Assembly (NCBI GenBank): GCA_009835515.1
Contig: VXXH01000376.1
Location: forward strand, 1-16,960
Source: Candidatus Poribacteria bacterium
Lineage (GTDB): Bacteria > Poribacteria > WGA-4E > WGA-3G
DNA length: 16,960 nucleotides
Direction of reading: 5' to 3'
Shown: positions 13,432 to 16,551 of the stretch, one piece after another
Position numbering within the stretch: position 1 is the first letter of the stretch
How the letters are laid out: each line of letters starts with the position of its first letter
The notes under the pieces: generated by a model
The model's database searches: none
What the model was told of the DNA's origin: nothing
The model's input: the letters and a program-made list of their open reading frames with translations, nothing else
Position numbers and translations under genes: made by a program

Positions 13432-13788
13432 GACGTTGTATCTTCGCTGAGGTCTCCGACGCGGGAAAAAGCGTGGATCGCGTCAGGGCAGCACTCCCTT
13501 TTTCGGGATGCTGCGCAGGTGTCCAACCACCGGCGCAGCGTAGCACTGCCATATCGTGAGTATAGCAGCACTGGTTTCTATTATAGCAGGTGACGGGTGT
13601 TATATGCTATAACAATAGAGACCAGCCCCTCTTGGGACGGATTGCCTGAACCTTCCTTTTCTTTGTTGCTTTAAGGCAATTCCGCCATCCGTTGAATTCA
13701 ACCTCGCAACGCACCCGACACATCGACGCGTCGGGGTGGTTGCGACCGACACCGATGCAGACGTGTATTGGTGATAAGGAGTGAAAAC
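13432..13788 (+). promoter_or_regulatory. long structured 5' leader with several hairpins, two mutually exclusive
   Basis: No gene is seen in this 357-nt stretch. Perfect or near-perfect stems: A, GACGCG/CGCGTC (13458-13463 with 13479-13484). B, 10 bp with one bulge, GCAGCA-c-TCCC against GGGATGCTGC (13488-13498 with 13505-13514). C, 9 bp including one G-T pair plus 4 bp, ATGCTGCGC-a-GGTG against CACC-g-GCGCAGCGT (13508-13521 with 13528-13541). D, TTATAGCA/TGCTATAA (13581-13588 with 13605-13612). E, ATTGCCT/AGGCAAT (13641-13647 with 13674-13680). F, CGCAAC and CCCGAC against GTCGGG and GTTGCG (13705-13744). B and C share 13508-13514 and cannot coexist. AAGGAG at 13776-13781 is the ribosome-binding site. 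I do not recognise a known riboswitch class. Confidence 0.5.
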
Positions 13789-14487
13789 ATGTTTTTACGA
13801 ACCTATTGGGTCCCGATCACGATCTTTATAGCCGTGCTGATGAGCTGCAGTCTGATTTTGTTGCAGCCGAGAGAGAGACCCCCTATAAAAATCTACAAAA
13901 CCACCGAGATTGAGACACAGACGGCGAAACCACCGCCGCCGGGGGCTGACCCGAATGGACACTGGCACGGCGATGAATGGCATGCCGCGCCGCATGAAGC
14001 AGACACCGGGGATGAGACACCGCGTTCGCAGCCCCGCCCACTTCCTGAAACGGCATTAGAAGGTCACTTATCGCCTGAAGAAGCGTATCAGGCGTTGCGT
14101 GAGAAGTATCCCGACCGGACGAACAACCCACACCCGTTTGAGAATGTGCCTGTAGACCTTTATGACTTTGAAGCCACGAAAGCCGCGTTTATGGATCACT
14201 TCAATTTCTACGTGGCACAAGGCGGAAATAAGCCTGAAGTTTTTGAGAATAACCGTGAGGTGCGCATCGCATACGCAGTGATGACAAATATTTCCAACGC
14301 CGCGCAACCCTGGGTCGGTCTCTTTACCCGTGAACAGCGTGAGGAAATTAAGGAGCTGCGTAGACGCTACCGTGAGTTTCAAGGGGTCAACGTCAATCAT
14401 GATCGTGTTTGGCAACTGGTCAAGGATGAAGGGTATAGTGTCTCAGAAGCACTGGATATTTCCAGAGAGGAGGACAGCAACCGATGA
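13789..14487 (+). CDS. membrane-anchored His-rich/Pro-rich protein of unknown function
   Basis: A 232-residue protein with an N-terminal hydrophobic segment (about 6-26). LMSC (17-20) could be an atypical lipobox, otherwise this is a signal anchor. A proline-rich stretch (KPPPPGADP) leads into HWHGDEWHAAPHE (58-70), with His at 58, 60, 65 and 69. This resembles the HxxHxH metal-binding motifs of streptococcal histidine-triad proteins but occurs only once. Residues 90-232 are charged and helical, with LSPEEAYQALREKYP (94-108) and a basic REQREEIKELRRRYREF stretch (181-197). The ATG at 13789 is chosen over an upstream in-frame TTG at 13768 because AAGGAG sits 7 nt before it. The stop overlaps the next start by ATGA. 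I know no characterised homologue; metal binding is inferred. Confidence 0.7.
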   Translation: MFLRTYWVPITIFIAVLMSCSLILLQPRERPPIKIYKTTEIETQTAKPPPPGADPNGHWHGDEWHAAPHEADTGDETPRSQPRPLPETALEGHLSPEEAYQALREKYPDRTNNPHPFENVPVDLYDFEATKAAFMDHFNFYVAQGGNKPEVFENNREVRIAYAVMTNISNAAQPWVGLFTREQREEIKELRRRYREFQGVNVNHDRVWQLVKDEGYSVSEALDISREEDSNR

Positions 14488-15215
14488 GAAACGACAGAAC
14501 AGACCTCTGCGTTCTATCTGTGTTGCTGATCGGTCTGCTTTTTATCGTCAGTATAGCAGATGCCCAAAACGTTGCTGAACTTCGGGAGGCGATGGATGAC
14601 GCAGAGGATTTTGTAGACGATAAAGTAGATGACCATGGGGACGCTAACGATCATCTCAATCAGCAGGTCGCGAATTTTGTTCGGTTGCATGGGCATCTTG
14701 TCGGTATAGAGCTACCAAGTCAATCCCCCGCAACGCATACTCAGGCTCTGATCGTCAAGACAACGCAGATCGTCGAAAAACTTATCCAGGCGAATCAGCT
14801 GACCTCCGCGATGGAACAACAGTTAGCCGCCATCGAGACCCAACGCACGACGTGTAATAATCTGTGGGCGGATGTGCAGTTGGCACAAACCGCCTATGAG
14901 GATGCGATTGATGCGTATAATGAGGAAGTGTCTCCAAATGAGCAGATAACAACGGTCGAAGTGCCGCAGGCGCCGCCTGTCGCGTATTTGTATCTCTGTC
15001 CGGGTCCGTGTTCAACGGCGTTTACGACGCAGGTTTTAGCGACGACCACGCATAAGGTGTTTTGTCAAGAGTCACCGTGTAATGGTACGAGCAGGTCCTA
15101 CTACTCCTGCCCACCCAATTATGAGAACATCTGTCCCGGAAAATGGAATCATCAAACGCCCTGTCGGGGTGGCTGCGGAACACTCTTTGCCGATAATACT
15201 GGCCCCCCCCCATAA
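14484..15215 (+). CDS. secreted coiled-coil protein with Cys-rich tail (5' part of a frameshifted gene)
   Basis: A 243-residue product with a signal peptide (about 9-27, cleavage after IADA). Residues 28-155 are acidic and helical, with heptad-like runs (LIVKTTQIVEKLIQANQL, MEQQLAAIETQ) suggesting a coiled coil. Residues 166-235 are Cys-rich, with paired cysteines at 172/176 (CPGPC), 194/199, 209/217 and 227/231 (CRGGC), like small zinc ribbons or disulfide-bonded modules. The frame ends at TAA 15213-15215, directly after nine C (15203-15211). Another frame rich in Cys continues past that point, so this is probably the 5' part of a longer gene. An AGGAGG-like site precedes the ATG, which overlaps the upstream stop by 4 bp. 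Function unknown. Confidence 0.75.
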   Translation: MRNDRTDLCVLSVLLIGLLFIVSIADAQNVAELREAMDDAEDFVDDKVDDHGDANDHLNQQVANFVRLHGHLVGIELPSQSPATHTQALIVKTTQIVEKLIQANQLTSAMEQQLAAIETQRTTCNNLWADVQLAQTAYEDAIDAYNEEVSPNEQITTVEVPQAPPVAYLYLCPGPCSTAFTTQVLATTTHKVFCQESPCNGTSRSYYSCPPNYENICPGKWNHQTPCRGGCGTLFADNTGPPP

Positions 15216-15843
15216 TGGCAGGGGAGATTGGGGCCATCGCAAAGACTGCGATGAACGGACATCTCGAAACATCTGGAATGGCTGGACAGGAGACTGCATC
15301 GGCACCTACTACAACTGCAATGGACAAACGTCTGCGGATTGCTCGAATGCCAGTCAGCATCTCAGCGATAGCAGTAGCAGTTCGGGTTGTGCGAACAACG
15401 CGACGTATAACTATTGCGATGATCAAGGTTCATGTTCGGAGGGTTCAAGTTCGGGCGTTCCGGGTCCCGTCTGTGGTCATAACTACTGCTGTTGCTCGCC
15501 GTCGGATAGCAGCTCTGGTGGCAGCAGTTCCGGTGGGCGGAACTGTGGGACCTGCGATAGATATTACGCCCCTGGGGAGACGATCGGGACGTGTCCAAAC
15601 GGGGATGTCTGTTGGTTCGACGACAGCAGCTCTGACGGTAGTAGCAGTAGCGACGGCAGTTCAGATGACAGCAGTTCAGACGATAGTAGCGATTCGAGTG
15701 ATAATGGGGTCTGCCAGCAGTGCGGTGGTGCGAATTATTACCCCTGTGTCTACTGTGGTGTGACCTTTGACACCTGTTATTCTCACATTCGGGATTGCTC
15801 GTCGTCGTCGGATGGCTGGCATTCTTCGGTGTCCTATGATTGA
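15082..15843 (+). CDS. Cys/Ser/Asp-rich C-terminal part of the frameshifted secreted protein
   Basis: The frame is open from an ATG at 15082, but only the part from about 15205 looks coding. Before that it runs inside the preceding gene and has no cysteine. From 15205 it has 21 Cys in about 212 residues, in small knuckles: CGHNYCCC, CGTC, CPNGDVC, CQQC, CVYC and CYSHIRDC. These are separated by Ser/Asp/Gly linkers (repeated SSD and SSSDG units, coded around 15620-15710). The composition continues that of the upstream Cys-rich tail, and loss of one C at 15203-15211 joins the two into about 452 codons. Taken alone it would lack a signal peptide and a ribosome-binding site. Zinc knuckles or disulfides are both possible; the acidic linkers suggest an exported, flexible protein. 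The start given is formal only. Confidence 0.6.
   Translation: MVRAGPTTPAHPIMRTSVPENGIIKRPVGVAAEHSLPIILAPPHNGRGDWGHRKDCDERTSRNIWNGWTGDCIGTYYNCNGQTSADCSNASQHLSDSSSSSGCANNATYNYCDDQGSCSEGSSSGVPGPVCGHNYCCCSPSDSSSGGSSSGGRNCGTCDRYYAPGETIGTCPNGDVCWFDDSSSDGSSSSDGSSDDSSSDDSSDSSDNGVCQQCGGANYYPCVYCGVTFDTCYSHIRDCSSSSDGWHSSVSYD
15203..15211 (+). other. nine-C homopolymer at a frame switch
   Basis: GG followed by nine C and then ATAATGG. With eight C, the upstream frame reads Gly-Pro-Pro-His-Asn-Gly-Arg-Gly and continues to the stop at 15841-15843 without interruption. With nine C it stops at once. Poly-C of this length is a classic slipped-strand site and also a common sequencing or assembly error. Confidence 0.8.
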
Positions 15844-15852
15844 TCTTTTCAG

Positions 15853-16551
15853 ATGTCTATCACTTTTAACCCTTTCAAGCGACGCTCCATTTATCTTTTG
15901 ATATTTGGTGCGTTGTTTTTACTGCTGATTGTGGTTGTGGTGCGTGTTCTGTCGCCCTCGCCACCGGACCTTGAACCCGTCAAGGAGAGAACCGCGGTTT
16001 CTGAACCGCGTCGCGTCCACCGAACCCCGCCCCGAGTCTTTGAGGTCTCCGAAAACTACTACCAGACCATCATCGACAATAACCTGTTCCGTCCGTTAGG
16101 CTGGCGACCGCCACGACCGAGAGAACCCTATCGTCTCATTGGCACGAAACTTGCGCGTGATGCGAACACACCGCCACAGGCAATCATTGAATCCACCGCA
16201 GGAAACACAACATATATTGTGTCAATCGGTGAGAAAATAGACGCATCGACCGAAGTTGTAGACATCCAGCCGAAGCAGGTCACGCTTTCGACCAACGGCG
16301 CGCAAAGAAAGTTGAGACTCAATACCGCTGTCACCCTGAACGCGTCGGCTGCCACCCGTCGGTTTCCGATACGGACGACCCACACACCGACACCGATGAG
16401 ACGACCGCCCGGTGTCTCCGCGCCGCGAACCGATAGCCCGCCGTCTCCGCGCCGTCCGCTGTCTGACTGGGAGACCCGCGAAGGTCAACCGATACCGATT
16501 GGCGATGCTCGGCTGAAAAACCCTCAGAAGTGGGGACTCCGCCGCCGATAG
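15853..16551 (+). CDS. GspC/PulC-like type II secretion inner-membrane protein
   Basis: A 232-residue bitopic protein: cytoplasmic N-tail, one membrane helix (about 13-33), Pro/Arg-rich linker (35-62), then a GspC homology-region-like domain (about 68-160). Its signature includes YQTIIDNNLFRPLGW (70-84), YRLIGTKLA (93-101), IIESTAGNTTYIVSIGEKI (111-129) and VVDIQPKQVTL (135-145). In type II secretion this domain contacts the secretin GspD in the periplasm. The tail (160-232) is Pro/Arg/Thr-rich, and no PDZ or coiled coil is present. It starts 9 nt after the Cys-rich frame, with no clear ribosome-binding site, so coupling is likely. No secretin or ATPase gene lies in the window. A type IV pilus PilP-like role is an alternative. 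Confidence 0.75.
   Translation: MSITFNPFKRRSIYLLIFGALFLLLIVVVVRVLSPSPPDLEPVKERTAVSEPRRVHRTPPRVFEVSENYYQTIIDNNLFRPLGWRPPRPREPYRLIGTKLARDANTPPQAIIESTAGNTTYIVSIGEKIDASTEVVDIQPKQVTLSTNGAQRKLRLNTAVTLNASAATRRFPIRTTHTPTPMRRPPGVSAPRTDSPPSPRRPLSDWETREGQPIPIGDARLKNPQKWGLRRR

Follow-up and report, generated by a model that had tools for sequence, protein, structure and literature searches.

An exported cysteine-rich gene of Candidatus Poribacteria interrupted at a run of nine C: a candidate null allele in a family with frequent gene loss

The DNA analyzed here (the window; 16,960 nucleotides of contig VXXH01000376.1), from an uncultured, sponge-symbiotic Candidatus Poribacteria bacterium, carries, as comparison with its homologues shows, one gene for an exported cysteine-rich protein, gene B, which is broken in this assembly at a run of nine C. 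The reading preferred, with moderate confidence, is that the window copy is a recent null allele, produced by slippage in a C run peculiar to its lineage, within a birth-and-death family. Copies of B come and go in this family by duplication, shuffling and loss, a history of frequent turnover into which the break fits.

Gene B is the middle member of a three-gene cassette on the forward strand, consisting of gene A, the Cys-rich B and a GspC-like gene C. Gene A (13,789–14,487) has one N-terminal hydrophobic segment, judged by eye, and an HWHGDEWH motif, and belongs to a large paralogous family; its open frame extends from 13,768 to 14,487, with the start placed at MFLRTYW on the basis of the MFIRKYW of its relatives. 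The A stop codon overlaps the B start as ATGA, and an AGGAGG lies 10 bases 5' of that start, ATG 14,484. The upstream frame of B (14,484–15,215; 243 codons) encodes a probable signal peptide (14,484–14,564; residues 1–27, ending in IADA, again judged by eye), a helical region, a first Cys module and half of a second, and ends in GPPP-stop. The rest of the gene (15,211–15,843; 210 codons) is rich in Ser and Asp, contains 21 Cys and includes a 36-residue module, CANNATYNYCDDQGSCSEG...CGHNYCCC, at 15,388–15,495. Gene C (15,853–16,551), which resembles the T2SSC periplasmic domain and has one N-terminal hydrophobic segment (by eye), begins 9 nt past the end of B.

The interruption lies at nine C, positions 15,203–15,211. 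Read from ATG 14,484, the codons are GGC CCC CCC CCA TAA, with the stop at 15,213–15,215; the initial annotation had correctly described the C run and the stop but had placed the TAA immediately after the nine C, and one A stands between them. From 15,211 the downstream frame reads CAT AAT GGC and stays open to TGA 15,841–15,843, with no further stop, shift or other disabling change and with the family residues kept. Taking away one C puts both parts into one frame of 452 codons (242 + 210), as had been calculated, and the downstream frame indeed has no sensible start of its own: the in-frame ATG, GTG or TTG codons at 15,082, 15,121, 15,169 and 15,187 lie within the upstream frame, those at 15,760 and 15,829 lie near the end of the downstream one, and no AGGAGG-like site occurs within 20 bases 5' of any of them. 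TAATG at 15,213–15,217 was considered as a coupling stop/start overlap and rejected, its ATG beginning a third frame (182 aa) rather than the Cys frame. Codon usage past the C run does not single out the Cys frame (mean log-odds of -0.06 vs. -0.01 for the next frame); homology does so. The run is the longest of C or G in the window, where a dinucleotide shuffle gives an expectation of 0.07 occurrences and at least one in 10 of 200 shuffles, so that its presence by chance is unusual, not impossible. The other long frames in the window are intact.

The two parts belong to one gene, as they are joined in the homologues. The joined protein was compared with a protein database, in which the 7998 candidates sharing most words were scored, and 20 matches were obtained. 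Twelve of these (P0001–P0012) are full or partial B homologues, 42–74% identical to the joined protein, and in all 12 a single frame runs across the junction, P0005 reaching a few residues past it; the alignment of homologues that the initial annotation had suggested thus upholds its proposal that the C run divides a single gene for an exported Cys-rich protein, and provides the intact single-frame homologues expected for a pseudogene. P0001 matches both the upstream frame (E 2e-108) and the downstream frame (query 15,082–15,840, E 4e-17). The closest matches spanning the junction are 70–74% identical, and among the same 7998 candidates no near-identical joined protein was found; the product of this species was found in the database in the nine-C form only, as the 243-aa P0021, recorded from two contigs that may represent the same data.

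The break falls between CRGGCGTLF and HRKDC and so halves the second of two similar Cys/His modules (15,162–15,360; CRGGC...HRKDC...YYNC...C...H), a pattern common to the single-frame homologues. The spacer from CGT to HxxxC is 13–16 residues long in 11 of the 12 homologues, P0011 being off-pattern, and would be 17 in the window if the frames were joined; no proline run occurs in the homologous loop of these proteins. In the DNA of relatives, B-like single frames were found at L004, L009, L011, L012, L030, L032 and L034. At L006, a contig end, the N-terminal part of B is missing, and at L005 the CDDQGSC module of the downstream part shares one frame with the upstream part, the sole interruption of which is a TAG far upstream of the window's break. 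P0009, the B homologue of a related genome, is recorded as Candidatus Poribacteria, and a search of genome contigs with the family alignment gave one locus, L025, in a Poribacteria MAG, already among the relatives.

The C run itself is private to the window copy and not a feature of the family. The initial annotation had raised the possibility of a poly-C in homologues as well, and none of nine or more C or G was found in 92 related cassette regions, where runs of six to eight are present. These regions comprise 283,086 bases, some overlapping: 88 start 200 bases short of the end of an A gene, and among these is the second cassette of the window's own genome; four are further B loci. Outside B, some A genes are preceded by C runs of eight to eleven. 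Viral contigs contained no copy of the gene B junction at any tract length of the search pattern. Nine-C matches vary from 0 to 187 per genome across 57 genomes, longer runs being counted repeatedly, which makes poly-C abundance a trait of particular genomes, not of gene B. The window's own genome, a draft of 4.85 Mb in 881 contigs with 78.6% completeness, has two C/G runs of nine, the other being intergenic, and five of exactly eight. Three of the latter lie within frames that are intact and 613, 568 and at least 1002 codons long, one is near a contig end, and one is beside what is presumably the 3' end of a tRNA. A genome-wide set of poly-C switches was therefore rejected for this genome: it has seven runs of eight or more, and such tracts are not over-represented in its genes.

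A side observation concerns longer C runs elsewhere. In relatives, many runs of C8–C13 have a similar stretch behind them, of the approximate form C(n)-ACTTTACAnnnnnTAAGTATT-n-CTTCACAAGG, seen at L008, L021 (own genome, contig C528), L043, L054, L058, L060, L061, L066, L098, L099 and L109, and lying upstream of an A-B cassette in L008, L098, L099 and L109. Since its length differs among copies, either a promoter containing a C run of variable length or a dispersed repeat could account for it; in 12 genomes the motif count was not clearly above that of a reversed-pattern control.

How often are B copies broken? Besides the window's own, there are 108 A places, of which 95 were examined; the 13 left out are three at contig ends and ten among the weaker matches. 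Behind A, 38 of the 95 have a Cys-rich frame open for 300 codons or more, 10 are too near a contig end, and 47 are of other kinds. Thirty-nine were left unclassified, including G010, where B ends after 64 residues, G008:C59, where 614 Cys-rich codons stand open behind an in-frame stop, and G044:C1:2563682, with a possible frame change at 26% identity. At least nine of the 46 copies judged, the window's included, are broken and 37 are apparently unbroken, the latter number being an upper limit, as the criterion was an open Cys-rich frame of 300 or more codons close to A rather than each residue, and G005:C1:1382485 probably has an in-frame stop with 122 more Cys-rich codons behind it.

The eight further broken copies represent independent inactivation in relatives. 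Three come from one genome: in G031:C114, one of the 38, the signal peptide is in a different frame, with a shift at an A7 run; G031:C22 has a frame shift at CCGGGCCG; and G031:C47 has one extra C at GATCCATT in comparison with its intact paralogue G031:C30 (95–97% protein identity). G011:C397 changes frame, with no long C run, in the very spacer of the second Cys module that is interrupted in the window. Stops break G029:C311 and G034:C121, a TAG replaces Trp in G036:C1, and G050:C97 has a frame shift. Most of these breaks lie away from homopolymers. Outside the 46, as G010 is, G040:C114 has a TAG just before CRGGC and, like G011:C397, no long C run; together with the window and G011:C397 it makes three breaks near the second Cys module, too few for a hot spot to be called, and chance would allow such clustering just as a site-specific mechanism would give it. 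NAD synthase, used as a control in the 57 genomes, forms one full-length frame in 54, own genome included; in G029 and G040 it is in pieces whose main parts share open frame length, and in G018 it is in two frames. The comparison of B (9 of 46) with NAD synthase (1 of 57) gives a Fisher p of 0.005, or 0.03 if G029, G040 and G018 are all counted as broken, with the qualification that the test overstates independence, three of the nine broken B copies being from G031. NAD synthase is also an essential type of gene, and so controls for sequence error, not for relaxed selection.

What other explanations could account for nine C? The main rival is a sequencing or assembly error, in which the real tract would have eight C and gene B would be intact. 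This is unlikely, yet it deserves the most weight among the alternatives: the run is the longest of C or G in the window and one of two of its length in a draft of many contigs and incomplete coverage of the genome, and the frame behind it is undamaged. On the other hand, the 243-aa product has been recorded twice, perhaps from the same data, three C8 runs of the same genome lie in intact frames, and both the genome's NAD synthase and the window's other long frames came through whole. Next after error, and less likely again, is phase variation, as the initial annotation had proposed, in which replication slippage in the C run would toggle the B tail, and perhaps C, in individual cells. The length and place of the tract fit known poly-C switches (PMC1891110); the protein is exported, a one-unit change restores the full 452 codons, and the remainder is intact. 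However, the tract is absent from the relatives' cassettes, and the homologous loop lacks a proline run. The own genome shows no set of such loci in genes, the other breaks in the family are not at such runs, and the joined form of this very species did not turn up among the 7998 scored candidates. A fuller version, in which the complete Cys-rich protein and a 243-residue stub alternate by slippage within a variable display repertoire, is doubtful to a greater degree. As C begins so close behind B, a real switch would also tune the GspC-like partner, and the duplicated, shuffled and broken A-B-C cassettes would then form that repertoire, directed at the sponge or its phages.

C runs can support slippage, and a programmed +1 ribosomal frameshift or transcriptional slippage could in principle give both a short and a long protein from the nine C. 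The order of the frames fits +1, and G011:C397 changes frame in the same spacer, but does so without a long C run; the 12 homologous proteins are unbroken there, the relatives' regions lack a run of nine, and no slippery site is conserved at the same codon among homologues. Programmed shifting, which had also been put forward, is thus very improbable. Least credible of all is that the two frames are separate genes, for which an ATG at 15,082 might be invoked. That codon sits within the upstream gene, some 130 bases short of the junction, and has no ribosome site, and the window's own downstream frame is absent among the 10 matches listed (8000 candidates scored). The initial annotation had named parts that are always separate genes as evidence against a single one, and the opposite was seen, the homologues joining both; this explanation is already contradicted.

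Under the preferred reading of a null allele, the ancestral gene B would have been a single gene of 450 codons, encoding an exported Cys-rich protein in the middle of A-B-C. In this lineage a C run would have arisen in the loop that separates the two parts of the second Cys module, and slippage, by bringing it to nine C, would have shifted everything behind it into the wrong frame. Ribosomes would stop after 243 codons, presumably producing an exported stub with the helical part, a single complete Cys module and no Ser/Asp/Cys tail. Gene C would lose its coupling to B, since its start would be 637 nt past the stop rather than 9 nt. The break is probably recent, because the downstream frame is undamaged and keeps the family residues. 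The same undamaged frame is predicted equally by a switch or a sequence error, and this counts against the preference for a null allele.

Gene A, for which no Pfam family was found at E 0.01, occurs in 34 of the 57 family genomes; with the window's own copy, its places number 109. Gene B likewise has no Pfam family above cut-off and no solved structure with a sequence match at E below 0.16; the AlphaFold model of P0001 has a hydrophobic helix at residues 5–26 and long helices to residue 149, the Cys part being poorly modelled (mean pLDDT 49). B proteins diverge strongly in their C-terminal modules. The window's CDDQGSC...CGHNYCCC module is also present in the L005 copy and in P0013–P0017, proteins with other N-termini; P0013 has three copies of it (YCDDQGSCSxGSxSGVPGPxCGxNxCCC, 36 residues), and neither P0013 nor P0015 has a Pfam match. 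In the own genome's second cassette (L137, G000:C7), A is intact and a C piece and a B piece are each truncated; a common 64-codon stretch (RSRGCCRVSTRQRHPC...) comes after both, as though one repeat had gone in at two places.

Gene C resembles GspC of type II secretion in that it matches the T2SSC profile over the C-terminal part of the latter (PF11356; E 2e-5, 24.8 bits). It differs in staying below the cut-offs, both of this profile (27 bits) and of NF041515 GspC_delta (E 6e-6, 26.2 bits; cut-off 150), and in being found beside Cys-rich genes at the loci inspected. Type II secretion systems typically have one GspC per secretion operon. Gene C matches number 1–17 per genome in 57 of 57 genomes, with nine in the own genome and many containing stops, and this exceeds the need of one secretion system. 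In G005, a one-contig genome, three GspC-like paralogues (L081:3572, L081:13694 and L110 reverse 3138) share a frame switch directly after PYRLIGE (GGAGAACC/TCGAAACTTGCG), which could be a programmed shift or a break that was inherited and multiplied as the gene duplicated.

The closest parallel is provided by Campylobacter CapC/CapD, surface autotransporters with a patchy distribution, whose copies are inactivated by premature stops and frame shifts and have homopolymers in or near the genes; the authors of PMC7168839 favor progressive decay of capC over tract-driven switching. The proteins are unrelated, however, the tracts are common there and private to one copy in Poribacteria B, and gene B sits in a cassette with a GspC-like gene. 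The poly-C and poly-G contingency genes of Bordetella and Neisseria, many of which encode surface proteins, likewise have a C/G run in or beside the gene at which one base changes the frame, and the tract thresholds used here were taken from them (PMC1891110 and PMC5084427); in Bordetella, C/G runs above eight are over-represented and serve as a screening threshold (PMC1891110). Length polymorphism between strains or species is a property of those genes, whereas for B only the nine-C form was found, and its homologues do not carry the tract. In the full-text literature, one paper came up for Poribacteria together with phase variation, and its subject is single-cell tools; among the matches listed for Poribacteria with GspC, cysteine-rich proteins, pseudogenes or type II secretion, including PMC8546597, none appears from its title and the opening of its abstract to deal with these cassettes.

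As a broken gene, B is ordinary; more interesting is the cassette family itself, in which neither A nor B has a Pfam family. If polymorphism in the length of the C run were real, it would be evidence of a poly-C switch in the phylum Poribacteria. High turnover and frequent inactivation are what one typically sees in surface or interaction proteins when the selection on them changes, and what the broken copy exposes is an expanded Poribacteria family of exported Cys-rich proteins, encoded beside a GspC-like gene, in which turnover is high and inactivation frequent.
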